NCBI GenBank assembly: GCA_019247515.1
Contig: JAFAOS010000398.1
Span: forward strand, 1-64,000
Direction of reading: 5' to 3'
DNA: 64,000 nt
DNA from: Chloroflexota bacterium
GTDB lineage: Bacteria; Chloroflexota; UBA6077; CF-72
The translations under genes were made by a program, and so were the position numbers. The notes under the pieces were generated by a model. It was not told the origin of the DNA, did no database searches, and saw only the letters and a program-made list of their open reading frames with translations. This document shows, piece by piece, positions 3,957 through 59,871 of the stretch (the stretch's first letter is position 1; each line of letters begins with the position of its first letter).

Positions 3957-4784
3957 CTAGGAGCCAAAGATCAGCGTCGCCGCGCCGAGAAGAATGCAGT
4001 ACGCGGCAAACGGCAGCAGGGCGTTGACCTCCTGCCGCTTGTAGTAGCGCATCAAGAACCAGGTGCTGAGATACGCCATGACGCCCGAGATTGCGCCGGC
4101 GAGCAAGGCCGGTCCCAGAAACGCGCGCTCGTCGGGTTGCAGCAGCTTGGGTATTTCGACGAGCCCGGCCGCGAAGATGATCGGCGTCGCCAGCAAGAAT
4201 GAGAAGCGGGCCGCGGACTGGTGCTCGAGTCCGACCAGCAGGCCACCCACCAGCGTGGCGCCCGAGCGCGAGAAGCCCGGCAGCAGGGCGATGATCTGGC
4301 TGGTGCCGATGCCGACCGCCTGCAGCGGCCGCAACAGGACCAGTGTGGCCCTGCCAGCGCGTCGTCGCAGGAACTCGCCGAGCGCCAGCATCACGCCGTT
4401 CAGCATCAAGAACACCGCCACCAGCCGCCATTCCGCGAACAACGTCGTCAGGCCGCCGCGGAAGATCAGGCCGACCAGACCCGCCGGGATCGTGCCGAGG
4501 ACCAGCAGCAGCAGCAAGCGGCGGGACTCGTCACGCGCCGGACTCACCTGACGGTCGAACAGCGACGAGATCAGCAGCCACCAGTCACGCCAGAAGTACA
4601 GCAGCAGCGCCAGCGCGGTGAAGACGTGCAGCAGGACGAGGAACGGCAGGAAGGTGGTCGCATTCTGGTCGATCGTCCAGCCGAAGAGGTGGGGAATGAC
4701 GACGGCGTGGCCGAGGCTGCTCACGGGGAACAGCTCGGTCACGCCCTGGATGACGGCGAGGACGATTGCCTGGAAGAGGTTCAT
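3957..4784 (-). CDS. uppP: Undecaprenyl-diphosphatase (UppP/BacA family)
   Basis: An integral membrane phosphatase predicted to convert undecaprenyl diphosphate to the monophosphate, recycling the lipid carrier for peptidoglycan and surface polysaccharides. The family signatures are present: Q13GVTELFPVSSLGH, carrying the (E/Q)xxxE motif, and LPGFSRSGATL about two-thirds along, which is the PGxSRSxxT motif. Length of 275 residues and roughly eight membrane segments fit the family. I chose the ATG at 4784, preceded by GGAG, over the track start at 4820. It stands alone, convergent with the MFS gene. Some homologues give bacitracin tolerance. Confidence 0.93.
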   Translation of the reverse strand: MNLFQAIVLAVIQGVTELFPVSSLGHAVVIPHLFGWTIDQNATTFLPFLVLLHVFTALALLLYFWRDWWLLISSLFDRQVSPARDESRRLLLLLVLGTIPAGLVGLIFRGGLTTLFAEWRLVAVFLMLNGVMLALGEFLRRRAGRATLVLLRPLQAVGIGTSQIIALLPGFSRSGATLVGGLLVGLEHQSAARFSFLLATPIIFAAGLVEIPKLLQPDERAFLGPALLAGAISGVMAYLSTWFLMRYYKRQEVNALLPFAAYCILLGAATLIFGS

Positions 4785-4832: not shown

Positions 4833-4856
4833 GTCGGCGGGCGGAATTCCGCCGAC
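4833..4856. terminator. GC-rich hairpin between VOC gene and uppP
   Basis: GTCGGCGG and CCGCCGAC form an 8-base-pair stem around an 8-base loop, just past the stop of the minus-strand VOC gene and upstream of uppP. There is no T-run, so this may be a Rho-assisted or weak terminator, or just a hairpin. Confidence 0.35.
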
Positions 4857-4871
4857 ACCCCGGTTATCTGG

Positions 4872-5243
4872 CTACGGCCGCGCAGGCAACTGCTGCACCG
4901 CCCACTTGTTGCCATCCGGATCGTTGAAGTACACGAAGCGGCCCCAGGCGAGGTCCTGGACGTCGCTGACGGGCACGCCGCGACCGGCCAGGTGCTTGTG
5001 GGCGGCTTCGACGTCGGCGACCACCATCTGCAGGCCCTCAACCGAGCCCGGCTGCGCCGCCGTAAGGCCGCGGCCAAAAGCGATCGAGCAGCCCGAACCT
5101 GCGGGCGTGAGCTGGACGAAGCGGATCTGTTCGTTGACCGTGTGGTCGTGATCCAGGTGGAAGCCGACCTGGTCGGCGTAGAAGGAACGGGCGCGGTCGA
5201 CGTCGGAAACGGGCACGATGACGAGCTCTAATTTCCAGTCCAT
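4872..5243 (-). CDS. Glyoxalase/bleomycin-resistance (VOC) fold protein
   Basis: A single VOC domain of 123 residues. It begins LELVIVPVSDVDRARSFYADQVGF, typical of the family's first beta-alpha-beta unit, and ends with GRFVYFNDPDGNKWAVQQL, the usual second half. Members bind metals and act as glyoxalases, isomerases, dioxygenases or resistance proteins; nothing here decides which. I took the ATG at 5243, preceded by a G-rich site (TTGGGG), and not the upstream track start at 5312, whose extra residues do not look like protein. It is divergent from the solute-binding lipoprotein at 5332. Confidence 0.85.
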   Translation of the reverse strand: MDWKLELVIVPVSDVDRARSFYADQVGFHLDHDHTVNEQIRFVQLTPAGSGCSIAFGRGLTAAQPGSVEGLQMVVADVEAAHKHLAGRGVPVSDVQDLAWGRFVYFNDPDGNKWAVQQLPARP

Positions 5244-5331: not shown

Positions 5332-7074
5332 ATGGCTACATCTCACCAACCTGCACACGTCGACCTCTCGCGGCGCGCGGTGCTCAAGGGCGTCGCCTCC
5401 GGTCTTGTCCTCGCGCCTGGCCTGCTGGCCGCGTGCGCACCGCCGGCGCCAACCAGCAGCCCGCCCACCAGCGGCGCTGGCGCGAGCGGCACCCCCGCGG
5501 CGGCCAATGTCCTGCCCACCTACGTCCCGCTGCAGAACGGGCCGAAGCCCGATTACCCCAGCGCCGGCCAGCAGTATGAAGACGGCTGGGACAACTACCC
5601 GACCAACCCGATCAAAGCCTGGACCAAGGCTCCGCCCGGCGAGGGCGGCGCGGTCACCGCCCTGAGCAACGGCTTCAATCCGCCCTCCACCCCCTTCGAT
5701 CAGAACCCGGCCTGGCAGGAAGTCAATCGCCAGCTCAACGCCAACGTGCAGTTCAACGTCATCCAGCCGGTCGACTACGCGACCAAGCTTGCCACGGTCA
5801 TGGCCGGTCAGGACCTGCCCGACGTCATGCTGTTTCCGGGCGGTCTGAACGTCAACATCGGCGGCGGTGGCGGCGGGACTGCGAACCTGCCCACGTTCTT
5901 GCAGACCAAGTGCGCCGACCTCACCCCCTACCTCGCCGGCGACGCGATCAAGGACTATCCCTACCTGGCCGCCATTCCAACGTTCGCCTGGAAGAACTCG
6001 GGTTCCGCCTTCAACGGCCACCTGTACATGATCCCGCTCGAGCGCTACGTGGCCGGCCAGGCGCTGTTCAAAAACGTCGAGATCTACGACGCCGAGATCG
6101 GCAAGGACTACGTCCCGAAGAATGCCGACGACCTCAAGCGGGTGTTCCAGCAGCTCAATCGGCCCCAGGAGGACCGTTATGCGACGGCCTCCTTCCAGTT
6201 GCAGGCGTTCTTCATCACCTTCTACTCGGCCATGTTCGGCGCGCCGAACAACTGGCGCCTCGAATCGAGTGGCAAGCTGACCAAAAACTACGAGACACCC
6301 GAATTCAAAGAAGCCATCAACTACGTGCGCGACCTGTACGTGGCCGGGCTGTTCCATCCCAACTCGCTGAATTACGGCGACATCAACGCGGCGCGCCTGA
6401 ACTTCGTGGGCGGCAGGTTCGTGCTGTACCCCGAAGGCTTTGGCCAACCCTGGCAGGACTTCTGGCGGCGCGGCCTCAAGAACTCCCCGCCCTACAACTT
6501 CATCCCGCTGCCACCGTTTCCCGCGCACGACGGCGGTAAGCCACAGCACTTCCTGGGCCCCGGCTTCATCGCCGCCAACGCCTTCAAGCAGGCCAGTCCC
6601 GACCGCATCAAGGAGCTGCTGCGGATTATGGACTTCCTCGCCGCGCCGTTTGGCACACAGGAAGACCTGCTACTGCAGTACGGGCTGCCGGACATCCATT
6701 ACACGCTGGACAGTACTGGCAAGCTGAGCCTCAACGACAGGAGCAACGTCGACGCGAACTACGTCAACTGGAAGTACCTGGTGCAGCACCCGCAGGTGAT
6801 GTACGTACCGGATATTCCAGGCTACGCGAAGGCGGAGTACGACGCCGAGCACGTGCTGATTCCGGCCGGGGTGAACGATCCAGCGTTTGGCCTGTACGCG
6901 CCGACGAATGGCAGCAAAGGCGTCGTCATCCAGCGGACCATGATCGACGGCATCACCGACATCATCGCCGGCCGCCGCCCTGTCTCCGACTACGACCAGC
7001 TGGTCAGGGACTGGCAGGACAACGGTGGCGAGCAGATCCGCAACGAGCTCCACGCCGCGCTCGGGCAACAGTAA
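5332..7074 (+). CDS. Extracellular solute-binding lipoprotein (family 1, sugar-type), Tat signal
   Basis: A secreted ABC-transporter binding protein of 580 residues. The N-terminus has a twin-arginine motif (SRRAVLKG, residues 13-20) and a lipobox LLAAC with lipid-carrying Cys35, followed by a low-complexity Ser/Thr/Pro/Ala linker. The mature part has family-1-like phrases such as ATVMAGQDLPDVMLFPGG and resembles LipO-type large sugar-binding proteins. It should sit on the outer face of the membrane and deliver a glycan or glycoside to permeases, but none is encoded nearby, so it is an orphan here. The ATG has a GGGAAG site six bases upstream. A hairpin repeat follows its stop codon. Confidence 0.88.
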   Translation: MATSHQPAHVDLSRRAVLKGVASGLVLAPGLLAACAPPAPTSSPPTSGAGASGTPAAANVLPTYVPLQNGPKPDYPSAGQQYEDGWDNYPTNPIKAWTKAPPGEGGAVTALSNGFNPPSTPFDQNPAWQEVNRQLNANVQFNVIQPVDYATKLATVMAGQDLPDVMLFPGGLNVNIGGGGGGTANLPTFLQTKCADLTPYLAGDAIKDYPYLAAIPTFAWKNSGSAFNGHLYMIPLERYVAGQALFKNVEIYDAEIGKDYVPKNADDLKRVFQQLNRPQEDRYATASFQLQAFFITFYSAMFGAPNNWRLESSGKLTKNYETPEFKEAINYVRDLYVAGLFHPNSLNYGDINAARLNFVGGRFVLYPEGFGQPWQDFWRRGLKNSPPYNFIPLPPFPAHDGGKPQHFLGPGFIAANAFKQASPDRIKELLRIMDFLAAPFGTQEDLLLQYGLPDIHYTLDSTGKLSLNDRSNVDANYVNWKYLVQHPQVMYVPDIPGYAKAEYDAEHVLIPAGVNDPAFGLYAPTNGSKGVVIQRTMIDGITDIIAGRRPVSDYDQLVRDWQDNGGEQIRNELHAALGQQ

Positions 7075-7085
7075 CCGCGCAAGGC

Positions 7086-7118
7086 TCCCTCTCCCTCTGG
7101 GAGAGGGCCGGGGTGAGG
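7086..7118. repeat. Interspersed hairpin repeat, copy 1
   Basis: CCCTCTCCC-TCT-GGGAGAGGG followed by CCGGGGTGAGGG. It forms a nine-pair stem with a three-base loop. The core recurs at 10937, 37235, 44074, 44146 (inverted) and 50959 (inverted). Here it lies between the convergent ends of the binding-protein and phosphomutase genes. Confidence 0.85.
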
Positions 7119-7155
7119 GCCGCGAGAGAGAGGCGAACTGACGCGCTACTGCAAA

Positions 7156-46981: not shown

Positions 46982-47288
46982 CAGTCGTTGCAAAGTCTGC
47001 TTCTCTCGAGAGAAGAATTGCCGGCACCTCGAAGGGTGGCCGGCACAACGTGAGCTAGCGGCCTCGTTACGAACGCATGTTCAGTATTCCACCTACGGTG
47101 GAGCCCTTTCAGGGTTTCGTTACCGGTCAGAAGCCGTGATAGGTTGTTGGCCACCGTGCACGGGCCTTCACGATGCGCGGCTCCAGGGCTAGCTCGCGCG
47201 CGCATTGGGGATGGCTATGCCTGCATAAGCACTGGTAATGCGCGGGCGCTGACCCGTCTGGCATAGCCTGAAGGGTGGGGAGTGCACC
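46982..47288. other. Intergenic stretch with inverted repeats upstream of the 47289 binding protein
   Basis: About 307 bases without a credible gene. It holds a perfect palindrome TTCTCTCGAGAGAA (47001-47014), a small CCACC-TAC-GGTGG hairpin near 47090, and a long-range inverted repeat GGCTATGC (47213-47220)/GCATAGCC (47261-47268). The latter contains TATGC-CT-GCATA (47216-47227), a LysR-box-like palindrome. The last element, TGGCATAGCC, resembles motifs upstream of the 51988 and 57032 genes. No tRNA or terminator with a T-run was seen. Confidence 0.5.
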
Positions 47289-48989
47289 GTGAGCCAGGGC
47301 CAAAAACGCGGACAACTCATCACTCGGCGGCGGGTGCTCGGGAGCATGGGGCTCAGTGTGGCCGTGGCGCTGCTGGCGGCTTGCCAGCCGGCGCCGGGCG
47401 CGCTGTCGACGAGCGCACCCGCCGCGGATCAGTCGACGGCGACGCAGCCGCCGTCCGCGGCGCAGGCCTCTGCGAACCAGCAGCCGTCCGCAACACAGTC
47501 GACCGCGACCCAGCAGCCCTCGGCGACCCAGGCCTCCGCCACCGAGCAGCCGCGCAGCGGCGGCACCTTGCGCCAGGGCAACCTGGGCGACCTGCCCACC
47601 CTCGACGGCAATTTCCTCAATGGCCAGAGCACCATTTACCCCGTCTGGGACCGCCTCGTCGAGCTCGACCCCCAGCTGAATCCCCAGGGCATCCTGGCGG
47701 AGAGCTGGGACGTCGACGACAAGTACACGCGGATTGCCCTCCACCTGCGCAAGGGCGTGCAGTGGCATACCGGCCGCGAGCTCACCGCCGACGACGTGGC
47801 GTGGAACATCCGCCGCGTGAGCAGCGATCCGAAAGTCGCCGGCGGCGGCTTCTACAACTGGATGTCGCAGACGCTCACGGGCGTGGACACCACCGACAAA
47901 TACACCGTCGTGCTGAACGCGGAGCGGTCCTGGCCGGCCGTTTTCGACACCCTCTCCCTGCTGAGCATCATCGACCCGGTCACCTTCCAGTCGACAGGTC
48001 CAACACAGCCCACCGGCACCGGGCCATTCACGTTCGCCGACTATGCGCAGGGCGATCACTTCACGCTGAAGAAGAATCCCAACTACTGGCAGTCCGGCAA
48101 ACCCTACCTGGACGGCATCGAGATCAAGCTCTTCAACGATCCACAGTCCATGATCACCCAGTTGGAGGCTGGTGCGATCGACCTGGTCCTGGCGCCCGCC
48201 ATTCGCGACGTCGCCCGCCTGTCGAAGGACCCGAACTTTGTGGTCACCTTCCACCAGTACAGCGGGGGCGCCAACCTGGTGTTCGTCCAGGCGAAGGACG
48301 GTGCGGGGCCGACGACCAACAAGCTGTTTCGTCAAGCGCTGAACGCCGCGATCGATCGCCAGCGCTGGACCGACACCGTGCTCCTCGGCTATGGCGCGCC
48401 CAAGACGTTGCCGCTGGCGCCGCCCAATCCCGGCTACGACGCCGCTCGCGACCAGGCGCTGTCTTTCGACCTCGACAAAGCCCGCTCACTCCTCCAGCAG
48501 TCGGGAGTCGGCACTCCGCCACTCGAGGTCATCTGGAACGCCACGGTGACCGATTACGCGACGGTGATGCAGATTTATCAGCAGGACCTGGCCAGGATCG
48601 GGCTCACGCTGACGTTGAAACCCACCGAACCGGTCGCCTTCGTCGATCAGACGTACAACTCGAAGTTTCCAAATCTGGCCACCAGCGCCACCCTGTACGG
48701 CAATCTGCGACCCGGCTTTTTCGCGGGCAACGTCTACTACAGCCCCTTCAACAACTGGAGCAGTTTTCGAAGTGACCGGTTGCTCCAGTTGACGGACGGT
48801 CTCCTGCACGAGACCGACGCCAGCAAGCAGAAGCAGATTTACGCGGACTGGCTCGACTACATTCAGGACGAGAGCTGGGCGATGCCCTGGTCCAACACTG
48901 CCCCGCGCTTCATCCAGTCGACGAAAGTGCACGGTGTACGCTGGAATCTGGCCGACTATATGCTGACCAACGACACGTGGCTGGGGTGA
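47289..48989 (+). CDS. Dipeptide/oligopeptide-type (family 5) binding lipoprotein, Tat signal
   Basis: A 566-residue ABC binding protein. The N-terminus has twin arginines (ITRRRVLG, residues 11-18) and lipobox LLAAC (Cys32), then ~50 residues of Ala/Thr/Gln/Pro/Ser repeats (QPSATQSTATQQPSATQASATEQP). The family-5 core begins GGTLRQGNLGDLPTLDGNF and includes LAESWDVDDKYTRIALHLRKGVQWHTGRELTADDVAWNI and TGPFTFADYAQGDHFTLKKNPNYW. The GTG start has a GGGGAG site. It is a close paralogue of the 57032 protein, which is linked to permeases; this one is followed by two amidohydrolases. The substrate is likely a small organic compound and need not be a peptide. Confidence 0.93.
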   Translation: MSQGQKRGQLITRRRVLGSMGLSVAVALLAACQPAPGALSTSAPAADQSTATQPPSAAQASANQQPSATQSTATQQPSATQASATEQPRSGGTLRQGNLGDLPTLDGNFLNGQSTIYPVWDRLVELDPQLNPQGILAESWDVDDKYTRIALHLRKGVQWHTGRELTADDVAWNIRRVSSDPKVAGGGFYNWMSQTLTGVDTTDKYTVVLNAERSWPAVFDTLSLLSIIDPVTFQSTGPTQPTGTGPFTFADYAQGDHFTLKKNPNYWQSGKPYLDGIEIKLFNDPQSMITQLEAGAIDLVLAPAIRDVARLSKDPNFVVTFHQYSGGANLVFVQAKDGAGPTTNKLFRQALNAAIDRQRWTDTVLLGYGAPKTLPLAPPNPGYDAARDQALSFDLDKARSLLQQSGVGTPPLEVIWNATVTDYATVMQIYQQDLARIGLTLTLKPTEPVAFVDQTYNSKFPNLATSATLYGNLRPGFFAGNVYYSPFNNWSSFRSDRLLQLTDGLLHETDASKQKQIYADWLDYIQDESWAMPWSNTAPRFIQSTKVHGVRWNLADYMLTNDTWLG

Positions 48990-49996
48990 GAATCGTCGAC
49001 GCGTTCCCGCACATCATTCCGGCGGACTGCCTGGAGCGCTTCTGCACGGTCGCCAGCGGCCCGGCGCTCGACTTCCTGCGCGGACTTCGCGGCCGCGGCC
49101 ACCTGGCGCCGATGTGGGACCTCGACGCTCGGTTCCGGTCGATGGACGCCGTGGATGGCTACGTGCAGGTGCTGACGCTGTGCTTGCCGCCAATCGAGCA
49201 GATGGCGCGCGGCGCGCCGGGGGTCGACCTCGCGCGCATGGCCAACGACCGCATGGCCGAGCTCGTGGAGCGTCACCCGGATCGCTTCGTGGGTTTCGCC
49301 GCGTCCCTGCCGCTCGACGACGCCGACGCGGCTCTCCGCGAGCTCGACCGCGCCGTGCAGGAGCTGGGAGCGCTCGGTGCGCAGGTCTTTACCAACTCCA
49401 ACGGCGCGGCCATGGACCACCCGAGGTATGAGCCGCTCTGGGCCCGCCTGGATGAGCTCGACCGCACGGTCTGGGTGCACGGCGCGCGACAGTCGACCAC
49501 GCCGGATTATGTCGACGAGGACCGATCGCGCTACGGCCTGTGGGCGGCGCTCGGTTGGCCATACGAGATGGGCATGTTCGCGGCGAGGATGGTTGCCTCC
49601 GGAGTTCTGGAGCGTCACCCGCGACTGCCGTTCCTGCTTCACCACAGTGGCGGCATGCTCGCGACATTCAGCCGACGCGTGAATGGCTCATGGCTGGAGC
49701 TCCAGGCAAAGTCCACCGAAGACGAGAGCGCGTACGCGCAACTCCAGCGGCCCCCCGCCGAGTATTTCTTCCGCTTCTGTGCGGACACGTCGGGCCAGAG
49801 TCCGGTCGCGGTCCGCGCGGCGCTGGAGTTCCTCGGACCCGAACACGTATTGCTGGGCAGTGACGCTCCGTTCAGCACACCGGTGGATCATGTGGCGATG
49901 CTCGCACGCTTGCAGTTGCCAGCGGAGCAGCACGCGCTGCTGGTGGGCGGCAACGCGGAACGTGTGCTGCATTTGAAGAAAGGAGCCGCCGCTTGA
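48986..49996 (+). CDS. Amidohydrolase-2 family (ACMSD-like), first metal His replaced
   Basis: A 336-residue TIM-barrel hydrolase/decarboxylase-type protein. Later family positions are intact, such as TVWVHGAR, FLLHHSGG and LLGSDAPF. The usual N-terminal HxH reads VDAFPHIIP, so the first metal ligand is Phe. It may bind one metal differently, be inactive, or form a complex with the following intact homologue. I chose the GTG at 48986, which overlaps the binding-protein stop (GTGA), over the track start three codons earlier. Members often act on ring-cleavage products of aromatics, which fits the neighbourhood. Confidence 0.85.
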   Translation: MRIVDAFPHIIPADCLERFCTVASGPALDFLRGLRGRGHLAPMWDLDARFRSMDAVDGYVQVLTLCLPPIEQMARGAPGVDLARMANDRMAELVERHPDRFVGFAASLPLDDADAALRELDRAVQELGALGAQVFTNSNGAAMDHPRYEPLWARLDELDRTVWVHGARQSTTPDYVDEDRSRYGLWAALGWPYEMGMFAARMVASGVLERHPRLPFLLHHSGGMLATFSRRVNGSWLELQAKSTEDESAYAQLQRPPAEYFFRFCADTSGQSPVAVRAALEFLGPEHVLLGSDAPFSTPVDHVAMLARLQLPAEQHALLVGGNAERVLHLKKGAAA

Positions 49997-50949
49997 CACG
50001 CGTCGACGTCCACGCCCACTACTACCCGCCCGCGCTGTATGAGCTGCTGGAACGCCTCACCGGCCAGTCTCAGCGGCGCATGCCCACGACGATGCCGGGC
50101 TTCGCTCGCCACGTGCCGATCGAGGGGCAACTGGAGTTGATGGACGGCGCCGGCATCGACGCGATGGTGATGTCGCTCGGTAACACTCCACCCTACTATC
50201 CGGCTGGCGATGTTGCCGCGGATGCCGCGTGCGGTGGCAATGACCTGTACGTCGACCTGCACACCCGCTTTCCCCAACGCTTCTACGCGTTCATTGGCCT
50301 GCCGCTGCCGCACGTGGACGCCGCGCTGGAGGAGCTCGAACGTGGCTTGCAGCTACCGGGTGTCGTGGGCGTCGGCCTGGGCTGCTCGGTGCTGGGCCAG
50401 CCGCTGGACGACCCGACGTTCGATCCGCTGTTCGCGGAGCTCAATCGTCGGCGGACGGTGGTGTTCATCCATCCGGTTGGTGCTGGTGGTGGACCAAACA
50501 GCCAGGACTTCAGCCTGACGTGGATGCTCGCCTCGCGATTCGAGGACACCATCGCCATGGCGCGACTGATCCTCTCGGGATTGACACTCCGCTATCCGGA
50601 CATTCGCTTCGTCATCCCGCACCTGGGCGGGACGATGTCGCTGTTCCTGCAACGCATCGACAACGTGGCCGAGCGCAACGGCTGGCGCGAGCAGCACAGC
50701 TCCGATTTGATGCCCAGCGACCTGGCGCGCCGCTTCTGGTTCGACACCGTCAACGAGCAGCACACCGCGCTGCGCTGCGCGTGCGAGACCTTCGGCGTCG
50801 ACCGCGTCATGCTGGGCACGGACTGGCCGATGCTCGCGCCGGAGATGCTGAAGCACTTTGTGGATTACGTTCCCGAAGCACTGCCCGCCGAGGACGCGCG
50901 GCGGGTGCTGGACGTCAACGCCGCGCGGCTGCTCGGTCTCTCCAACTGA
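49993..50949 (+). CDS. Amidohydrolase-2 family decarboxylase/hydrolase (ACMSD-like)
   Basis: A 318-residue TIM-barrel enzyme with the metal motif VDVHAHYYP intact, VVFIHPVG, FVIPHLGG (His) and MLGTDWPM (Asp). The family includes 2-amino-3-carboxymuconate-semialdehyde decarboxylase and gamma-resorcylate decarboxylase. It would decarboxylate or hydrolyse a ring-cleavage product or a hydroxybenzoate in the cytoplasm. The start is the TTG at 49993, overlapping the previous stop (TTGA) and preceded by AAGGAG. It is the second of a tandem pair, and the pair likely works together. Confidence 0.88.
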   Translation: MTRVDVHAHYYPPALYELLERLTGQSQRRMPTTMPGFARHVPIEGQLELMDGAGIDAMVMSLGNTPPYYPAGDVAADAACGGNDLYVDLHTRFPQRFYAFIGLPLPHVDAALEELERGLQLPGVVGVGLGCSVLGQPLDDPTFDPLFAELNRRRTVVFIHPVGAGGGPNSQDFSLTWMLASRFEDTIAMARLILSGLTLRYPDIRFVIPHLGGTMSLFLQRIDNVAERNGWREQHSSDLMPSDLARRFWFDTVNEQHTALRCACETFGVDRVMLGTDWPMLAPEMLKHFVDYVPEALPAEDARRVLDVNAARLLGLSN

Positions 50950-51004: not shown

Positions 51005-51844
51005 TCAGCGTGATCCGGCCGAGCGCCACACGTCGGCGTACGGCTCCATGACCCGCGGCTGACGGGCGGGATCGGTGATCTGCTCGACCTCCGCCGTATA
51101 TTCGACCGTGTTGCCCTCCGGGTCCTTGTAGTACGAAAACAGATTGTTGCCAAACAGGTGGCGGCCTGGCCCCCACGCGCGCGGGATGCCGCGTTCCCCC
51201 GCGTAGAAGACGGCCTTGATCCAGTCCTCCCAATCGCGTAGCTCGAACGCCGCGTGATGAAAGGACGGCACACCTTCGCGTGATTGGCCGAAGGCGATCG
51301 AATGATGATTGGCGTTGCACGCCCAGAAGCTCAGCCCGCCGATGAAGCGGTCGGTAAGGTTGAACCCGAGCGCGTCCTGGTAAAACGCTTCGCTGGCATT
51401 CTGGTCGCGCACGTTGAGCACCACGTGATTCAGCGCTTGCGGTTTGATCTCTTCGCGCTTGAACGGATCGGTGATGGACTCGACTCCGGCGACCAGCTCG
51501 ATCACAAAACCGTCGGGGTCCTTCAATCGCAGGGCGCGCTTGACGCCAGGCTCGAGATCGGCGGTCGGGGGCGTCACGATTTCGACGCCGCGCGCGAGCA
51601 GGTCCTCGTACGCGCGATCCACGTCGTCCTCCGACGGGACCTGCAACGCGACGTGGTGGAGGCCGGCGGCATCACCTTCGTTGAGCGTCAGGACGTGATG
51701 GTCGGGCCCCTCGGCCCGGAAATACATCTCGCGGTTGAACTCGTCGACACGCTCGAGACCCCAGCGGTCGTTGTAAAACTCGGCCTGCGCACTCAGGCTC
51801 TTCGCCTGCAGGCCAACGTGTGCGAGCCTGGTCACCTGCACCAT
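51005..51844 (-). CDS. Two-domain VOC protein, extradiol (catechol-2,3-dioxygenase-like) type
   Basis: A 279-residue protein with two VOC domains. The first begins MVQVTRLAHVGLQAKSLSAQAEFYNDRWGL, and the second QALNHVVLNVRDQNASEAFYQDALGF. The second holds the likely iron triad: His of LNHVVLNV, His of FHHAAFEL and Glu of NTVEYTAEV. That order matches extradiol ring-cleavage dioxygenases. I chose the ATG at 51844, with GAGGAG about 12 bases ahead; the upstream 55 residues in the track are not real. It is divergent from the 51988 monooxygenase across a region with nested inverted repeats, suggesting hydroxylation followed by ring cleavage. Confidence 0.88.
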   Translation of the reverse strand: MVQVTRLAHVGLQAKSLSAQAEFYNDRWGLERVDEFNREMYFRAEGPDHHVLTLNEGDAAGLHHVALQVPSEDDVDRAYEDLLARGVEIVTPPTADLEPGVKRALRLKDPDGFVIELVAGVESITDPFKREEIKPQALNHVVLNVRDQNASEAFYQDALGFNLTDRFIGGLSFWACNANHHSIAFGQSREGVPSFHHAAFELRDWEDWIKAVFYAGERGIPRAWGPGRHLFGNNLFSYYKDPEGNTVEYTAEVEQITDPARQPRVMEPYADVWRSAGSR

Positions 51845-51874
51845 GTGGATCGATACTCCTCTGGGCTCATAATG

Positions 51875-51920
51875 TATGCCACGCTCAGGCCTATTTGCCT
51901 GATAGATGGTGGCATAAGGA
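51875..51920. promoter_or_regulatory. Nested inverted repeats, candidate operator between divergent catabolic genes
   Basis: TATGCCAC (51875-51882) pairs with GTGGCATA (51909-51916). Inside it, TCAGGC (51885-51890) pairs with GCCTGA (51897-51902). The right half is part of a 15-base sequence, ATGGTGGCATAAGGA (51906-51920), that recurs exactly upstream of the 57032 binding-protein gene. Confidence 0.6.
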
Positions 51921-51987
51921 GTTGGAATGCTCCGCCGCCGCGTTGGGCGCGTTAGGCTGCATACAGCATCCGCACAGGAGACGGTCC

Positions 51988-53154
51988 GTGCCAGCCACAA
52001 GTACGCCAACCATTCAGGACATGGTGCAGCGGGCGCAGGCGTTGCTGCCCAGGCTGCGCGAGCGCGCCGCGGCCACCGAGGCCCTGGGACACCTGCCGCC
52101 CGAGACCGTCGCCGACTTCCGCGACGGCGGCTTTTTCCGCGTGCTGCAACCGCGGCGGTTCGGTGGCATGGAGCTGGACTACGGCCGCCTGCAGCTGGAG
52201 CTGTGCAGCACGCTTGGCCAGGCGTGCGGCTCGGCCGCGTGGGTGCAGATGGTGGTGGCCTGTCACGCCTGGTGTCTGGCCATGTTTCCAGATGCCGCTC
52301 AGCAAGCAGTCTGGGGCGAAGACCCCGAGACGCTCGTCGGCACCGCGTTCGGGTTCAGCACGGGCAGAGGCCGCCCGGTCGAAGGCGGCTACTGGCTGGA
52401 AGGCGACTGGGTTTTTTCCAGCGGCAGCGACCTGTGCCAGTGGATCATCCTGGGCACGCTCGTCGAGCAGCCGGGTCCACCCAATATGGTCTGGTCGTTG
52501 CTGCCGCGGACCGACTGGGAGATCCTGGACACCTGGCACTCGGCCGGATTGAAGGGCACCGCGAGCAACGACATCCGCGTCAAGGGCGCGTTCGTGCCGT
52601 ACGAGTTCACGCTCGATCGTCCGTTTGGTCCGCGCACCGAGCCGACGCCGGGCAGTCGCGTGAACACCAACCCCATGTACGCGCTGCCGTTGAACGGCTT
52701 CTTTCCTTTCAACGTGACGACGGAGGCGCTGGGCATCGCGCGCGGCGCCGTCGATGCCTTTGCCGGCCAGCTTGCCGGGCGCGGCGATCGGCCCAACCTG
52801 GTGGGTCGTCAGTTGCGTATGGCGGAATCAGCCGCCGAGGTGGACGCGGCCGAAGCACTGATCCGCGCGGACGTCGAGGTGATCGACCGCATCCTGCACG
52901 ACGGCGTCCCCGTCGAGCCCGTCTTCCAGGCCAAACTGGCGCGCGACCTGAGCTTCATGGTCAACCTGTGCGCCCGAGCGGTCGACCGCTTGACGACCGC
53001 GGTTGGCGCGCACGGCATGGCCGACGCCAACGTGGTGCACCGCGCCTCGCGCGACCTGCACGCGATCGGCAACCACGGCGTCAACAACTGGGAGCACCAG
53101 GCGCTGAACTACACGCGCGCGCGAACAGGCCTGCCGCCGATCGAGATGTTCTGA
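51988..53154 (+). CDS. Flavin-dependent monooxygenase, HsaA/acyl-CoA-dehydrogenase fold
   Basis: A 388-residue protein. FFRVLQPRRFGGMELDYGRLQLELCSTLGQACGSAAWVQMVV begins the helical domain; EGGYWLEGDWVFSSGSDLCQWIILGTLV and TWHSAGLKGTASNDIRVKGAFVP form the flavin-binding middle domain. C-terminal HRASRDLHAIGNHGVNNWEHQALNYTRARTGL is typical of HsaA and p-hydroxyphenylacetate 3-hydroxylase oxygenase components. It would ortho-hydroxylate a phenol using FMNH2 from an unlinked reductase. The GTG at 51988 has AGGAG eight bases ahead; upstream track residues are not real. It is related to the 28697 protein. Together with the adjacent VOC gene it suggests a hydroxylase/ring-cleavage pair. Confidence 0.9.
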   Translation: MPATSTPTIQDMVQRAQALLPRLRERAAATEALGHLPPETVADFRDGGFFRVLQPRRFGGMELDYGRLQLELCSTLGQACGSAAWVQMVVACHAWCLAMFPDAAQQAVWGEDPETLVGTAFGFSTGRGRPVEGGYWLEGDWVFSSGSDLCQWIILGTLVEQPGPPNMVWSLLPRTDWEILDTWHSAGLKGTASNDIRVKGAFVPYEFTLDRPFGPRTEPTPGSRVNTNPMYALPLNGFFPFNVTTEALGIARGAVDAFAGQLAGRGDRPNLVGRQLRMAESAAEVDAAEALIRADVEVIDRILHDGVPVEPVFQAKLARDLSFMVNLCARAVDRLTTAVGAHGMADANVVHRASRDLHAIGNHGVNNWEHQALNYTRARTGLPPIEMF

Positions 53155-53165
53155 GCTGCTGCTGC

Positions 53166-54104
53166 TTACGCGAGGCAGCGCAGCGGCTGGCCGCCGTTGT
53201 ATGCCACCATGTCCAGCAACGCCGCGGGGGTGTTGATGGCCGCGCCTGGCTCGGCGCCGTCGAGCTCCGCGTAGGCGCGGTGCAGGTTGCCGACGATGCG
53301 CTCGGGGTCGGTCAGGTTGGCGAATGGACCGAGGTCCGTCTGGCGCGCCAGCTCGAGCGGGCTCAGGCCGGCGGCTTTGCCGCGAGCGGCCGTGTCCTGG
53401 ACGAAGTGGAGGTAGCTTTCCACTGGATCGATGGCGGCCGGCGTGCTGACCGGACCATGCCCAGGCACCAGCGTCTGCGCGCCGAACGAACGCAGCCACT
53501 CGAGCGCGCGCAGTGAGCCCTGCACCGAGCCCATCGGCACAAACGGCGTGCCGCCGACGAACAGCAGGTCGCCGGTGAACAGCACGGAGCGGTCCGGAAT
53601 CCAGGCCACCACGTCATTGGTGGTGTGCGCTGGCGTCGGCGCGGCGTGCAGCTCCACCCGCAAGTCGTCCACCCACACGCTGAGGCGGTCTTCGAACGTG
53701 ACGAACGGCGGCTCGGGATGCAGCTCGCCCCAGTCGACGTGCGTCCAGAGGCCAGCTGGCGGCGGCAGCGGTGTCGCGAGGATCTCTTCCCGACAGCGCG
53801 GGTGGCCGATGATCGTCGCCGCCGGCAACAGGCAGTTGCCATGCGTGCGGTCGCCGTGGTGATGCGTGTTGACCAGCGTGCGCACCGGCTGAGACGTTAC
53901 GCGCGCGATCGCCTCCAGATACGCGCGGGTCCGCCGCTCGGTGGAGGTGGTGTCGATGGAGACCACGCCGCGACGTCCGACCAGAAATCCGGTGTTGTTG
54001 AGAAACCAGCTCCCATCGGGCTGAATGTAGGCGAAAATCCCTGCCGACACTTCCTCCACGCGTGGCGGTCTCAGCTCGAGGTGTTCGGCGTGCGAGGTGC
54101 TCAT
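53166..54104 (-). CDS. Metallo-beta-lactamase-fold hydrolase
   Basis: A 312-residue MBL-fold protein. The metal motif reads THHHGDRTHGN, that is HxHxDR, with Arg where most hydrolases have His (HxHxDH). Other positions are present: AHTTNDVVAWIPDRSVLFTGDLLF (His then Asp) and LVPGHGPVS (His). It resembles the SoxH/quinoprotein-relay-type MBL group; the reaction is probably hydrolysis of an ester, thioester or lactone. The start overlaps the FAH gene stop by four bases, so it is the last gene of a SBP-permease-permease-FAH-MBL operon. Confidence 0.88.
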   Translation of the reverse strand: MSTSHAEHLELRPPRVEEVSAGIFAYIQPDGSWFLNNTGFLVGRRGVVSIDTTSTERRTRAYLEAIARVTSQPVRTLVNTHHHGDRTHGNCLLPAATIIGHPRCREEILATPLPPPAGLWTHVDWGELHPEPPFVTFEDRLSVWVDDLRVELHAAPTPAHTTNDVVAWIPDRSVLFTGDLLFVGGTPFVPMGSVQGSLRALEWLRSFGAQTLVPGHGPVSTPAAIDPVESYLHFVQDTAARGKAAGLSPLELARQTDLGPFANLTDPERIVGNLHRAYAELDGAEPGAAINTPAALLDMVAYNGGQPLRCLA

Positions 54105-55129
54105 GGCTTCAGCAGCCCGTCCATGCCGTTCCGCACGTAGTCGACCGCGTGCTCGCCCGCGACGATCTGGTGTTCGAGTGTGCCAATGCCGGCGACCTCG
54201 AACGTGACCCGCTGTCCGACTTGCGGCCAGCGGTGGAGGTCGACCGAGCAGCTATAGCTCACCGTGCCGGTCCCGAGCACGTCGCCGGGCTGCAACGTCT
54301 CGTTGTCGGAGACGTACGCGACCAGGTGGTGCGCAAGAAAGCTGCGCGGCGCCGACGTATTGCCTTCGAACCACACCTCGCCGTCAACGCAGATACGCAC
54401 GTCAAGGTTCGCCTCGTCGATCTCGTCGGCGGTGACCATGCACGGGCCGAGCACCGTGGCCCAGTCCTTCATCTTGCCCGGGCCAAGGAATTCCGACTCG
54501 AACAGATACGGATCGCGCGCGCTGCAGTCGATCAGGATCGTGTAACCGGCGATCGCCTGTCTGGCCGCGTCGAGTGACAGGTTGCGTCCGCCGCGGCCGA
54601 CGACGATCCCGATTTCCAGCTCGAGGTCCAGCTTGTCGGAGTAGTACGGAAACGGAATGGCGTCCTCGGGACCGATGATCGAATCCGGATTGCCTTTGTA
54701 GTACGGCGGTCGGCGGTACCAGCTGTCGCGCTTTGGCGGTGCGCCGCCTTCGCGCCGTGTCATGTGCTCCGCGAAAATCGAAAAGTCGCGCAGTGAAGTG
54801 GGGCGCGGGAGCGGCGCCAGCAGCCGGACCTCGTGGCGGCCAAAACTCAGCCGCGCATCATCCAGACCTCGCGCGTCGTCCGCGCGGCTTCGCGTGAACT
54901 GGAGCGCCGCTTCTGCGGCCTCGCGTGACCGGTGCTGGCCGCGCAGCCAGCCGATCAGGTCCGGCGGAGTGCGGAGTTGGGCAAGCTCCCGCGGCGTTGG
55001 CTCGTCGGTCTGCTCCGCGAGATGCGTCGCGTACGCGGTAGTCAGATCGACGATGCGCTCGCCGACGAGCGCGCCGAGACGGCGCTGGCTGCCGGTTGGT
55101 CCACTGACGGCGAATGTGACGAGTTTCAT
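54101..55129 (-). CDS. Fumarylacetoacetate hydrolase (FAH) family protein
   Basis: A 342-residue C-C-bond hydrolase or decarboxylase of the FAH superfamily, common in the final steps of aromatic meta-cleavage pathways. YYKGNPDSIIGPEDAIPFPYYSDKLDLELEIGIVVG holds the metal-binding Glu residues; ILIDCSARD supplies the Asp. LGTGTVSYSC and the terminal VAGEHAVDYVRNGMDGLLKP also fit the family. It starts nine bases after the permease stop and ends overlapping the MBL gene by four bases. Placing it behind uptake genes suggests the transported compound is degraded by these two hydrolases. Confidence 0.9.
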   Translation of the reverse strand: MKLVTFAVSGPTGSQRRLGALVGERIVDLTTAYATHLAEQTDEPTPRELAQLRTPPDLIGWLRGQHRSREAAEAALQFTRSRADDARGLDDARLSFGRHEVRLLAPLPRPTSLRDFSIFAEHMTRREGGAPPKRDSWYRRPPYYKGNPDSIIGPEDAIPFPYYSDKLDLELEIGIVVGRGGRNLSLDAARQAIAGYTILIDCSARDPYLFESEFLGPGKMKDWATVLGPCMVTADEIDEANLDVRICVDGEVWFEGNTSAPRSFLAHHLVAYVSDNETLQPGDVLGTGTVSYSCSVDLHRWPQVGQRVTFEVAGIGTLEHQIVAGEHAVDYVRNGMDGLLKP

Positions 55130-55138
55130 GTGGTTCTT

Positions 55139-56065
55139 TCACCTCATGCGGCGGGGATCAAGGGCATCGCGCAACGCGTCAGAGACGAAATTCAACGCGA
55201 CCAGCAGGACGGTGAGCGCCAGTCCTGGCCACAAGCCGTACCACGGCGCCTCGCGCAGGTACGTGCGGCTGTCGTTGAGCATCGACCCCCAGCTCGGGTC
55301 GGGTGGCTGGGTGCCAAGTCCCAGGAACGACAGCGAGGCTTCGGCCAGGATGGCGAAGCCCATCGCCAGCGACAGTTGCACCAGCAGCGGCGGCAGCGTG
55401 TTGGGCAGCACGTGACGGACCATAATGCGCCGGTCGCCAGCGCCGATGCACAGCGCCGCGAATACGTACTCGCGCTCGCGCTCCGAGAGGACACTCGAGC
55501 GCATCAGCCGCGCGAAGAATGGCATGCTGCCCAGCGCTAGCGCATAGGCAACATTGATCGAGCTCGGCCCGAGGATCGAGATCACGGCGATGCCAATGAT
55601 GATGCCCGGGAACGCCAGCAGCGCGTCATAACAGCGCATGATGACGCTGTCGACCCAGCCGCCCTGGTAGCCGCTGAGCAGTCCAGTCGCCACGCCAACG
55701 CCCGCTCCGATAGCCGTGGCAATGACGCCGACGACGAACGACACCCGCGCGCCGTACACCACGCGGCTGAACAGGTCGCGACCAAGCTCGTCGGTTCCAA
55801 ACCAGAAGTCACCGCTGGGCGGCTGCAGCACGTTCAGCGGGTGCTGCTCGTAGGGCGAGTACGGCGCCACGAGCGGCGCGCAGATCGCCAGGCCGAGCAG
55901 CACCACCACCACGACGCTGCCGACGAGCCCGGTCGGACTGCGCAGCACGAGGACCGTCGCCTGCACGGTGAGCGGCTGGCGGCGCAGCCACTGGTTGGCG
56001 GAGCGGCCGCGCGCTGCCTTCGGCAGCGTGACGCGCGCAGGCAGCGACTGAGCCGGCGTGCTCAT
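55139..56065 (-). CDS. ABC transporter permease, DppC type
   Basis: A 308-residue inner-membrane permease. WFGTDELGRDLFSRVVYGARVSF is the family's signature after the first helix and extracellular loop, and EYVFAALCIGAGDRRIMVRHVLPNTLPPLLV is the EAA loop that contacts the ATPase. It overlaps the DppB-type gene by four bases (ATGA). With the 57032 binding protein it makes a Dpp/Opp-like importer, but DppD and DppF ATPases are absent from the window, so it must borrow them. Confidence 0.93.
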   Translation of the reverse strand: MSTPAQSLPARVTLPKAARGRSANQWLRRQPLTVQATVLVLRSPTGLVGSVVVVVLLGLAICAPLVAPYSPYEQHPLNVLQPPSGDFWFGTDELGRDLFSRVVYGARVSFVVGVIATAIGAGVGVATGLLSGYQGGWVDSVIMRCYDALLAFPGIIIGIAVISILGPSSINVAYALALGSMPFFARLMRSSVLSEREREYVFAALCIGAGDRRIMVRHVLPNTLPPLLVQLSLAMGFAILAEASLSFLGLGTQPPDPSWGSMLNDSRTYLREAPWYGLWPGLALTVLLVALNFVSDALRDALDPRRMR

Positions 56066-57021
56066 CGCGCGCGCCGCCCCGTGAGACGAATGCGGGGATC
56101 GATCACCCCGTACAGCACGTCGGTCAGCAGGTTGATGACGATGAACGTCACCACCAGCAGCAGCAGCGTGGCCTGCACGACGGCGTAATCACGCCTGCTG
56201 ATCGCGTCGCGAATGAGCTGGCCGAGTCCCGGCCAGGCAAACACCGACTCGATCACCACCGCGCCGCCCAACAGCCGACCAAAGTTGAGCCCGAGCAGGG
56301 TCACGACCGGCACCAGCGCATTGCGCAGCGCGTGACCCAGCACCACCCCGTGCTGCGCCACGCCTTTGGCTCGTGCGGTCCGAACGTAGTCGTCGCCCAG
56401 CACCTCCAGCATGGACGCCCTGACGAGCCGCGAAACGGCCGCCACACCCGGCAGCGCCAGCGTGACCGCCGGCAGCACCAGGAACTTCAACTCCTGAAGC
56501 GGGTCGCTCACCGGATCACCGCGGCCGCCTGGCGGCAGCCAGCCCAGGGCCAGCGAGAACAGCATGATGGCCAGGATGCCGAGCCAGAAGCTCGGCACCG
56601 CGACGGCAATCCCGTTGAAGCTCGAGATCAGCCAGTCGATCGGCTGGTCGCGTCGCACGGCCGCGATGACCCCGGTGGGTATCGACGCGAGAACCGTCAA
56701 CACCATCGCCGCAATGGCCAGCTCGAGGGTGGCGGGCGCTCGCTGGGCGATCAGTTGCGCGACGGGCGTGTGCGTGAAGAACGAGACGCCGAAGTCGGCG
56801 TGGACCGCGTTGTTGAGCCAGATCGCGTACTGCAGGGGCAGGGGCCTGTCCAGCCCGTTGGCCTGCCGGATCGCCGCCAGTGTCTCGGGCGAGGCGTCCT
56901 GGCCCGCCAGCAGCAGCGCCGGATCGCCAGGAATCAGGCGGATCCCGAGAAAGATCGCGAGTGTGGCAAGCAGGATGACGGGCAGCGCTTCGACGCAGCG
57001 ACGGATCAGAAACGCCGCCAT
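56062..57021 (-). CDS. ABC transporter permease, DppB type
   Basis: A 319-residue permease. It starts MAAFLIRRCVEALPVILLATLAIF, shows LDRPLPLQYAIWLNNAVHADFGVSFFTHTPVAQLI, and carries the EAA loop (DDYVRTARAKGVAQHGVVLGHALRNALVPVV). It ends VLYGVIDPRIRL, all standard for DppB. It lies ten bases after the binding-protein stop and overlaps dppC by four bases, so the three are one transcription unit. Confidence 0.93.
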   Translation of the reverse strand: MAAFLIRRCVEALPVILLATLAIFLGIRLIPGDPALLLAGQDASPETLAAIRQANGLDRPLPLQYAIWLNNAVHADFGVSFFTHTPVAQLIAQRAPATLELAIAAMVLTVLASIPTGVIAAVRRDQPIDWLISSFNGIAVAVPSFWLGILAIMLFSLALGWLPPGGRGDPVSDPLQELKFLVLPAVTLALPGVAAVSRLVRASMLEVLGDDYVRTARAKGVAQHGVVLGHALRNALVPVVTLLGLNFGRLLGGAVVIESVFAWPGLGQLIRDAISRRDYAVVQATLLLLVVTFIVINLLTDVLYGVIDPRIRLTGRRAR

Positions 57022-57031
57022 CGTGCCTGTT

Positions 57032-58762
57032 TTACCCGGTCAGCCAGCTATCGTTGGGCATCAGAAACTCGGTCATGTTGTAGGTGAGGCCCTGCACTTT
57101 CGCGCTCGAGGCGGCGCGTGGCACCGTGTTGGACCACGGAAATACCCACGCCTGGTCGTTGATGAACGCGATCCACTGCGCGTAAACCTGCTTCTGCTTC
57201 GCCGGATCCGTTTCCTTCAGCAAGCCGTCGGCGATGGTCGAGTACTCGTCCGACTGAAAATTCGCCCAGTTCTTGCCAGGGCTGTAGTAGGCATTGCCCC
57301 AGAAGAACGCCGGGTGCAACTGGCCGAAGAGACTGTTGCCGCCGATCAGCGCTCCGAACCTGGAGTTGAACAGCTGATCGACATAGGCCACCGGCTCGGT
57401 CGATTTGAGCGTGAGCGTGACGCCGATCTTCGCCAGGTCCTGCTGCCAGATCTGGAGCACGTTCTGGTAGTCCGGTGACGCCGACGAGTAGATCACGTCC
57501 AGCTGTGGACTCGAGACCCCGGACTGGCTAAGCAGCGTTCTGGCCTTATCGAGATCGAACGTGTTGGCCTGATCGAGCGCGGCATCGTAGGCGGGGTTGC
57601 TCTGGACGACCGGCAGGTTCTTTGGCGAACCCACACCCGGTAGCACCGTGTCGGTCCACCGCTGACGGTCAATCGAGGCGTTCAGCGCCTGGCGGAACGT
57701 TTTGTTGGTGGTTGGTCCCGCACCGTCGCGCGTCTGCGCCAGGATCACGTTCACCGACCCACTGTTCTGGTTGTACACAACCTGGTACTTGTTGTCCTTG
57801 GCCAGGCGAATCGCGTCGCGAATGAGGGGTTGAATGGCGAGGTCGAGAGCGCCGCCTTCCAGTTGCGACACCATCGACTGTGGATCGGAGAAAATCTTGA
57901 TTTCGATGCCGTCGAGGTACGGCTTGCCGGACTGCCAGTAGTTCGGGTTTTTCTTGAGGGTAAAGTGGTCGCCCTGCACCCACTCCACGAAGGTGAAAGG
58001 TCCGGTCCCCGCGGGTTTGTTCTGCTCCGGCGGCACCTGAGGGTCGAGGATGTTGGTCCACGCGAGCACGTTGAACACCGCCGGCCAGGGCTGGGTTGCT
58101 TTGAGCACGAGCGTGTATTTGTCGGGAGTTTCCAGAGACCCGACGGGTACGAAGAAGTTGGCTTTGATTCCGCCGTCGATTTTGGGATCGCCTTTGATGC
58201 GGTTGTAATTCCAGGCGACGTCCTCGGCGGTCAGTTCTCGGCCGGAGTGCCAGTTGACGCCCTGGCGCAGGTGAAACGTGATCTGGGTGAAATCGGAATT
58301 GACGTCCCAGCTCTCCGCCAGCGCCGGGTGGGGTTGCAGGGACGCGTCGAGGTCGACCAGCCGATCGAACACCGGGTAGATCACGTTCTGACCGTTGATC
58401 CAGTGTCCATCCGCGTTGGGCAGGTCGCCAAGGTTGCCGACGCGCAACGTCCCGCCCGAACGCGGTTGACCCTGGGGCGCCGCGGCTGACGCGGTCGAAG
58501 ACGTGGCGACACCGGCGGGCACAAAGCCGGCTTGCGCCGCGCGGTCCGCGGCCGCAGGGCTGGACGGCGCGGCGGTAGCGCCCGCGGTTGACTGAGCCGC
58601 CGACGGCGGGGTGGTCGGCCCGCTCGCGGGAACCGAGGTGGGCGCACTGGTCGGCGCCGGGCTCCGGCACGCCGCTAGCAGCGCAAGACCAGCCGCCGCC
58701 GCCGCAAAGAATCGCAATGCTGCACGACGGCTCACTGGTGCGTCGCGTGGCTCTGATGGCAT
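57032..58762 (-). CDS. Family-5 binding lipoprotein with Tat signal, Dpp-type system 1
   Basis: A 576-residue binding protein. It has twin arginines SRRAALRFF (residues 11-19), lipobox LLAAC (Cys32) and ~55 residues of Ala/Pro/Ser/Thr linker. The family-5 core runs from GGTLRVGNLGDLPNADGHWINGQNVIYPVFDRLVDLD to the C-terminal PWSNTVPRAASSAKVQGL. It is strikingly similar to the 47289 protein (GNLGDLP, KKNPNYWQSGKPYLDGIEIK in both). The ATG start has a G-rich site ahead. It heads the SBP-DppB-DppC-FAH-MBL operon, 122 bases downstream of the LysR gene on the same strand. The shared 15-base motif lies in that gap. Confidence 0.93.
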   Translation of the reverse strand: MPSEPRDAPVSRRAALRFFAAAAAGLALLAACRSPAPTSAPTSVPASGPTTPPSAAQSTAGATAAPSSPAAADRAAQAGFVPAGVATSSTASAAAPQGQPRSGGTLRVGNLGDLPNADGHWINGQNVIYPVFDRLVDLDASLQPHPALAESWDVNSDFTQITFHLRQGVNWHSGRELTAEDVAWNYNRIKGDPKIDGGIKANFFVPVGSLETPDKYTLVLKATQPWPAVFNVLAWTNILDPQVPPEQNKPAGTGPFTFVEWVQGDHFTLKKNPNYWQSGKPYLDGIEIKIFSDPQSMVSQLEGGALDLAIQPLIRDAIRLAKDNKYQVVYNQNSGSVNVILAQTRDGAGPTTNKTFRQALNASIDRQRWTDTVLPGVGSPKNLPVVQSNPAYDAALDQANTFDLDKARTLLSQSGVSSPQLDVIYSSASPDYQNVLQIWQQDLAKIGVTLTLKSTEPVAYVDQLFNSRFGALIGGNSLFGQLHPAFFWGNAYYSPGKNWANFQSDEYSTIADGLLKETDPAKQKQVYAQWIAFINDQAWVFPWSNTVPRAASSAKVQGLTYNMTEFLMPNDSWLTG

Positions 58763-58843
58763 GGACCACCCCCTGTTGCTGCGCTCCGAGGCGCTCTCGG
58801 CCGTTCAGGCTACGCCAAGCACGCGGTCGGGTCGAATTGCCCG

Positions 58844-58875
58844 TCCTTATGCCACCATATCGGTCGGCTATGCAT
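58844..58875. promoter_or_regulatory. Shared 15-base motif plus ATGCAT upstream of the 57032 operon
   Basis: TCCTTATGCCACCAT (58844-58858) is the exact reverse complement of the sequence at 51906-51920, so both copies have the same orientation relative to their downstream genes. A second TATGCA element (58869-58874, within ATGCAT) follows. It lies between the LysR gene and the binding-protein gene. It may be an activator site or a promoter element. Confidence 0.55.
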
Positions 58876-58884
58876 CCGAGCCGA

Positions 58885-59871
58885 TCAGAGGTCGCGCGCG
58901 ATGCCGCGCATCAGCTCGCGCAGCCAGATGTGACCGGCATCGCGATCGACGCGTGTGCTCCAGTACATCGACTCCTCGACGTCTGGGATCGGGACGGGCG
59001 GCTCCAGCAGCTTCAGCCCCGAAACCTGACGCGCCGGACGTTCGTGGACGAGGGCCACCAGGCGGCTGCCGCGCAGCAGCGCAGGTAGCAGCGCAAAGCT
59101 CTCGGTCGTGAGCGGGACGCGCCGCTGAATTCCCCGAGATCCGTACAGGACCTCGGCATGGCTTTGAATGACGGGGGTCCGCAGGCGCCACTCGAGATGC
59201 GGCAATCGACAGAACAGTTCGAGCGACATGTGCTCGCCGACCTCGGGATGGTCCGCGCTCACCGCGCACAGCCAGCGGTCCGTGTACAGCACTTCGCTGC
59301 ACGCGTCGGCGAACGCCTGGAACGCGCCCACGCTCAGGTCGACCTCGCCGCGTTCGGTCGCGGCCACCGGGTCTGTGCTCAATCCCGACAGGCCGCGGGT
59401 ATGGATCGTGACATTCGGTGCCTCCAGGGGCAGCCGAGCCGCCAGCGGCGGCAGCAGCAGCGCCATGACGTGATCGCTCATGGCAATCGAAAAGCTGCGC
59501 GCGTCGGTGGTCGGGGCGAATCCCGGTCGCCAGGTCAGGGTGCGCTCGATGTCGGCCACCGCGTTGGTGAGTGGTTCGACCAGCGAGCTGGCCAGGGCGG
59601 TCAGCTGGTATTCGCGCCCACAACGAACCAGGAGCTCGTCCCTGAACATGTGCCGCAGCCGGCGCAGGTCGCTGCTCATCGCCGGCTGTGTCACGCCGAG
59701 CCAGGCACCAGCTTGCGTCACGTTGCGCGTGTGCAGCAGCGCGTGCAATGACAGGAGCAGGTTCAGGTCGTAGCGTCGCAGCCTGGCGATGCGCCAGGCC
59801 AGTGAATCCCGGTCGGCAACACCGCTGCCGACGGGCGGCGCCGCCGTTTCGCTCTGGCCTGGCTCGAGCAC
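58885..59871 (-). CDS. LysR-type transcriptional regulator
   Basis: A 328-residue regulator. The N-terminal winged helix reads LRRYDLNLLLSLHALLHTRNVTQAGAWLGVTQPAMSSDLRRLRHMFRDELLVRCGREYQLTALA, close to the NodD-like subgroup. A periplasmic-binding-protein-like effector domain follows from about residue 120. An N-terminal extension of ~30 residues precedes the DNA-binding helices. Its gene lies upstream of the SBP-permease-FAH-MBL operon and points the same way, so it is the likely inducer-dependent activator. The TATGCC/GGCATA elements near 58850 and 51880 are candidate targets. Confidence 0.92.
   Translation of the reverse strand: MLEPGQSETAAPPVGSGVADRDSLAWRIARLRRYDLNLLLSLHALLHTRNVTQAGAWLGVTQPAMSSDLRRLRHMFRDELLVRCGREYQLTALASSLVEPLTNAVADIERTLTWRPGFAPTTDARSFSIAMSDHVMALLLPPLAARLPLEAPNVTIHTRGLSGLSTDPVAATERGEVDLSVGAFQAFADACSEVLYTDRWLCAVSADHPEVGEHMSLELFCRLPHLEWRLRTPVIQSHAEVLYGSRGIQRRVPLTTESFALLPALLRGSRLVALVHERPARQVSGLKLLEPPVPIPDVEESMYWSTRVDRDAGHIWLRELMRGIARDL

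Follow-up and report, generated by a model that had tools for sequence, protein, structure and literature searches.

Do the nested inverted repeats in the gap between two divergent genes of a Chloroflexota contig act as an operator, or does something else in this gap control the genes? In the 143 bp that separate the start codon of a VOC-family gene (51844, minus strand) from the GTG start of a putative hydroxylase gene (51988, plus strand), a sequence-only reading had described an outer and an inner pair of perfect arms. Both pairs are present: the outer arms TATGCCAC (51875-51882) and GTGGCATA (51909-51916) pair at 8/8 positions, and the inner arms TCAGGC (51885-51890) and GCCTGA (51897-51902) at 6/6. 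One pair is nested in the other, but their centres, 51895.5 and 51893.5, lie 2 bp apart, so that they do not form a single double-symmetric site. Random 143-bp stretches from a first-order Markov model of matching composition contain a perfect 8-bp inverted repeat within 60 bp in 8% of cases and a nested 8+6 pair in 0.3%. By the same criterion, four nested 8+6 pairs occur in the 64-kb window, by which we mean the whole 64,000-nt stretch analyzed here. Single-strand folding of the arm stretch beats shuffled sequences, with z scores of -3.1 and -4.4. Given these shuffle rates, the four pairs in the window and the folding scores, the nested repeats are locally only mildly unusual, and they were picked after the fact.

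Double LysR boxes at the predicted cluster promoters

Searching the genome from which the window comes (G000, 8.3 Mb) with the gap sequence returned an exact 15-base match. The sequence ATGGTGGCATAAGGA, at 51906-51920 on the plus strand, recurs 7 kb away at 58844-58858 on the minus strand. This second copy precedes an ABC-transporter operon by about 80 nt and comes right after a LysR gene ends. At one mismatch these are the only two copies in the 8.3 Mb, and a same-genus relative, G002, likewise carries two: the first lies in the orthologous gap, the second ahead of the ortholog of the metallo-beta-lactamase-fold (MBL) gene. Aligning the four sites gives a 40-bp element, NNAT-N11-ATGG-NN-GYAT-N11-ATKC, made of two T-N11-A boxes exactly 21 bp apart, and in all four founding sites the hexamer TAGSCT follows, 31 or 32 nt downstream of the box 2 centre. 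At the hydroxylase promoter the tandem boxes, with this 21-bp spacing, are shifted about 15 bp to the right relative to the nested arms, which they partly overlap (Table 1).

A matrix built from the four founding sites only was then scanned for further sites. In the window it found a site 48 nt before the SBP2 operon (47202-47241, plus strand), where the next unrelated place scores 8.6 bits; the maximum over 30 shuffled 64-kb sequences was 19.0 bits. Matches also occur in the G002 promoters of the SBP gene (31.9 bits), an LLM-type oxidoreductase gene named from its translation only (33.0 bits) and the FAH gene (22.2 bits), while the G002 VOC site is weak alone at 12.5 bits but has the correct -10 sequence. 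Whole-genome counts of the element rest on pattern searches: with up to 3 mismatches, a 21-position pattern occurs at 3 sites in the 8.3 Mb, all within the cluster, and at 4 in G002, with none in the genomes G001 or G008 and 0 for reversed-pattern controls. Extending the pattern with the -10 sequence added two more sites, on G002 contig C493; downstream of the one that does not precede an SBP paralog there is no obvious plus-strand gene of at least 200 aa. When a looser pattern was searched in 101 genomes with 2 mismatches allowed, it matched in nearly all of them and so lacked specificity, and the 3-mismatch matches on G001:C395 and G000:C346, at about 13 bits and without a -10 sequence, were treated as chance. 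At the G002:C374 site, box 1 lies inside a perfect palindrome, CCATTGC-N5-GCAATGG, between the LLM-like gene and a divergent hydroxylase paralog (58%).

Altogether, 11 sites (3 in the own genome, 8 in G002) align gap-free, with T4/A16 and T25/A37 invariant and with TANNNT following the box 2 centre at 31 nt in nine sites and 32 nt in two. This conservation spans only two genomes of one genus, though most of the sites belong to different promoters and are not orthologous copies. In G002 the FAH, MBL, VOC and SBP genes each own a copy, the element tracking genes through rearrangement. It appears that operons were reshuffled while the box stayed at each operon start.

Table 1. Features of the divergent gap, the surrounding cluster and related G002 sites (positions are those of the window unless a G002 contig is named)
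Feature	Position	Strand	Remarks
Nested inverted repeats	51875..51916		Present; pairs not conserved; judged incidental
LysR box 1, CTAT-N11-ATGG	51891..51909	+	Centre 51900, ~-65; T-N11-A invariant in 11 aligned sites
LysR box 2, GCAT-N11-ATGC	51912..51930	+	Centre 51921, ~-44; T-N11-A and ATAA invariant, 11 sites
Predicted -10 TAGGCT, hydroxylase promoter	51953..51958	+	TANNNT 31/32 nt past box 2 centre, 11/11 sites
Candidate -10 TACATT, VOC promoter	51871..51876	-	Predicted; TAGATT at comparable place in G002
Double LysR box before SBP/ABC-transporter/FAH/MBL operon	58834..58873	-	52.3 bits; genome-wide pattern
Predicted -10 TAGCCT, SBP operon	58807..58812	-	
Double LysR box before SBP2-amidohydrolase operon	47202..47241	+	38.4 bits; matrix built without this site
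Predicted -10 TAGCCT, SBP2 operon	47264..47269	+	
G002:C493 double boxes	4282..4321; 6433..6472	+; -	One ~100 nt before SBP paralog (46% identical)
G002:C374 double box	4848..4887	-	Before LLM-class flavin oxidoreductase-like gene
LysR-type regulator, presumed box binder	58885..59871	-	PF00126 + PF03466; DntR best solved relative
VOC-family extradiol-dioxygenase-like gene	51005..51844	-	PF00903; aligns to catechol 2,3-dioxygenases
HsaA/HPAH-C2-like flavin monooxygenase gene (acyl-CoA dehydrogenase fold)	51988..53154	+	PF08028; HsaA 275 bits; 3afe, 2rfq
Operon SBP - OppB - OppC - FAH hydrolase - metallo-beta-lactamase-fold protein	53166..58762	-	
Operon SBP2 - amidohydrolase 1 - amidohydrolase 2	47289..50949	+	

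LysR regulators have a primary site near -65 and an activation site between the primary site and the promoter (PMC4834489, PMC8407307, PMC4730206, PMC6628147). Taking TANNNT, by its position, as the -10 box would set the hydroxylase transcription start near 51965 (plus strand), and the positions of about -65 (box 1) and -44 (box 2) are counted from this predicted start. The centre of box 1 lies 52-53 nt ahead of the predicted -10 box, or at about -64/-65. The T-N11-A near -65 expected of an LTTR box is found at box 1 in 11/11 sites, and the second activation site expected between box 1 and the -10 box is found as the T-N11-A of box 2, again in 11/11. The position of box 1 supports a LysR operator because it matches the canonical site near -65 (PMC4834489, PMC8407307, PMC4730206). 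We recognized no -35 hexamer at the hydroxylase promoter, and a sigma-70 consensus scan of the gap region found no promoter. A sigma-54 promoter (-24 GG/-12 GC) was rejected, its spacing being off by one at the hydroxylase gene and TTG being absent at the SBP and MBL sites.

Counted on the opposite strand from the predicted VOC start (~51864, minus strand), the two shared boxes fall at about -36 and -57. No VOC-directed box was found in the own-genome gap, where the best score on the VOC strand is -1.8; the G002 VOC gene has its own box, unlike its own-genome counterpart. Control of the VOC gene through the shared boxes is likely, judging from these positions. We dropped the idea that a whole helical turn explains such shared control, since the offset is about 8 bp versus 10.5.

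The cluster regulator and its predicted regulon

The LysR gene of the cluster encodes both domains of a LysR-type regulator, each above its gathering score (PF00126, E 1.3e-10; PF03466, E 2.1e-14). Among solved structures the protein comes closest to DntR (1utb, E 1.6e-41), and among NCBIfam profiles to BsrA (NF050187, 134.6 bits versus a cut-off of 480); no named LysR equivalog passes for this protein, LeuO reaching 110 versus 262 bits. Among 101 genomes an ortholog at E<=1e-30 occurs only in G000 and G002, and a separate search of 16 genomes returned the same two. Between the two orthologs, 52/58 HTH residues and 164/235 of the remainder are identical, a stronger HTH conservation that would be expected if DNA specificity was kept. 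A double box follows the LysR stop in both genomes (58834-58885; G002 13197-13286), and the next gene differs, being SBP here and FAH in G002. Genome G008 encodes homologues of the FAH, VOC, MBL, hydroxylase and amidohydrolase proteins. Because neither the LysR ortholog nor the boxes are present there, its homologous cluster is presumably regulated some other way.

Comparison of the genomes shows the element, its geometry, its restriction to the cluster and its co-occurrence with the regulator. On this basis we consider it very probable that the element is a LysR operator-promoter, with a tetramer of the cluster LysR on the two boxes activating the TANNNT promoter and uniting the cluster in one regulon. 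Each dimer of the tetramer would occupy one T-N11-A box, both of them on the same helical face, the 21-bp spacing amounting to two helical turns; box 1 would serve as recognition site and box 2 as activation site. An inducer, probably a pathway substrate or intermediate, would then lead to activation, and not repression, of the promoter 31-32 nt past box 2. A LysR tetramer that bends DNA was among the options raised by the sequence-only reading, next to two overlapping operators and a transcript hairpin; the intergenic region argues strongly for this option in kind, bending presumably included, but at different bases, those of the tandem T-N11-A boxes at 51891-51930. A double box that is real but bound by another regulator, for example a LysR paralog, is improbable. 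LysR paralogs do occur in both genomes, but the cluster LysR, the presumed binder, is the only one whose close ortholog is found precisely in the genome that carries the element; its HTH is better conserved than the rest of the protein, and at the loci of the two paralogs no double box was found.

Because the same element stands before each cluster operon, the genes for uptake, hydroxylation, putative ring cleavage and hydrolysis would form one regulon of the cluster LysR, and the divergent VOC gene probably uses the same boxes. The other predicted members are two amidohydrolases, an FAA hydrolase, the metallo-beta-lactamase-fold protein and parts of an oligopeptide-type ABC transporter. More tentatively, and with somewhat less than even confidence, we suggest that the two boxes may be a rigid module in which box 2 is as sequence-specific as box 1, in contrast to the loosely defined activation site that is usual, in which the spacing of the double box and the -10 box varies by no more than one base across the 11 promoters, and in which one double box serves two divergent genes here.

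Homology makes the earlier labels ‘hydroxylase’ and ‘ring cleavage’ plausible; these functions are not established because both proteins fall below the NCBIfam equivalog cut-offs. The putative hydroxylase resembles HsaA (275 versus 450 bits) and the C2 oxygenases of p-hydroxyphenylacetate hydroxylase (HPAH, 170 versus 650 bits), with 3afe, 2rfq and 2jbr as solved relatives. HpaD (homoprotocatechuate; 129 versus 321 bits) and catechol 2,3-dioxygenases (catechol_2_3, 119 versus 320 bits) can be aligned with the VOC protein along its whole length. Its alignment to 1mpy is near full-length with matching His/Glu columns, which may hold the metal-binding His, His and Glu of the type I extradiol dioxygenase fold. 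A second VOC gene, 60% identical to that of the window, stands in tandem behind the VOC gene of G002 (G002 7084-8766). Taken together, the gene content and the shared element suggest an aromatic-type degradation cluster that is probably turned on as one regulon.

Alternative readings of the gap

The sequence GGYATAAG could represent an extended -10 promoter with no operator involved, and TGGTATAAG does resemble one. Conservation, however, reaches 30 bp upstream and 15 bp downstream and includes two T-N11-A pairs, and we dropped this reading as very unlikely because an invariant TANNNT stands 31-32 nt further downstream in 11/11 sites.

It is just as hard to sustain that the nested repeats are themselves an operator, with a regulator reading either the outer pair or the inner pair. 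The arms are perfect and nesting of this kind is rare in shuffled gaps, but failure of the pairs to recur in relatives with the same gene order had been set beforehand as evidence against such operators, and in the G002 gap, where the gene order is shared, neither the outer nor the inner pair is present. The best single-arm matches there are 6/8 for the outer left arm, 7/8 for the outer right arm, and 5/6 and 5/6 for the inner arms. At the ten other element sites an upstream partner for the right outer arm matches at best 5/8 bases, and the outer pair with its spacing has one occurrence in the whole genome. The right outer arm runs from the end of box 1 across the 2-bp linker into the first bases of box 2, the right arm of the inner pair sits within the variable spacer of box 1, and both left arms fall outside the boxes. 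We judge the nested palindromes incidental, mostly a coincidence overlying what appears to be a real LysR-box switch. A hairpin in the transcript, also proposed earlier, might act as an attenuator, terminator or riboswitch-like leader. This reading draws on the folding scores but has next to no probability, since the hairpin lies upstream of both predicted starts and would be transcribed from neither, is not conserved in G002, and has no T-run or intrinsic terminator (GC-rich stem plus T-run) in 51800-52050.

Comparison with characterized LysR systems

The double-box element appears to be a well-defined new case of a known type of LysR operator. Its strictly conserved second box is unusual: published accounts of LysR regulators deduce no common motif for the activation site (PMC4730206) or place the secondary contacts in non-conserved sequence (PMC4834489). 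Our literature searches found no direct report on LysR regulons of aromatic catabolism in Chloroflexi and nothing direct as precedent for a 21-bp tandem of LysR T-N11-A boxes. What began as a doubtful palindrome has become a testable regulon, for which a specific regulator and the genes expected to be co-regulated can be named, together with a 40-bp operator and predicted starts. With the module one could examine how strictly LysR tetramers require a given spacing between their two dimers, and by linking the genes of the cluster the shared element helps in guessing the pathway.

Among known systems, ThnR of tetralin degradation is similarly a LysR activator with several catabolic operons (thn) in one regulon, a primary T-N11-A centred at -64 and the close divergent catabolic promoters PB and PC (PMC4834489). 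As differences, ThnR needs a co-activator, ThnY, and its secondary sites bear only a loose resemblance to the primary one (PMC4834489). The divergent ThnR promoters have a primary site each (PMC4834489), whereas the window seemingly has one shared pair of boxes and G002 has two. At benA and catB, BenM and CatM likewise use a T-N11-A at Site 1 followed by a Site 2 that overlaps the -35 region, and in response to the effector the tetramer shifts to Sites 1 and 2 (PMC6628147). Their consensus is ATAC-N7-GTAT (PMC6628147), as against NCAT-N11-ATGG and GYAT-N11-ATKY in our sites, where, unlike at benA and catB, neither a Site 3 near -10 nor a -35 hexamer is evident. DntR/NahR (1utb; PMC4730206) provides the best full-length solved match to the cluster LysR, with the same domains and an RBS/ABS scheme, but the relation is distant, and we identified none of the known genes for nitrotoluene or naphthalene here. 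Finally, BsrA of Pseudomonas aeruginosa, whose NCBIfam profile is the closest to the cluster LysR, shares the T-N11-A motif (PMC8407307). BsrA has hundreds of loosely defined sites (PMC8407307), whereas the element described here has a long and strict sequence and occurs in a single cluster of its own genome.
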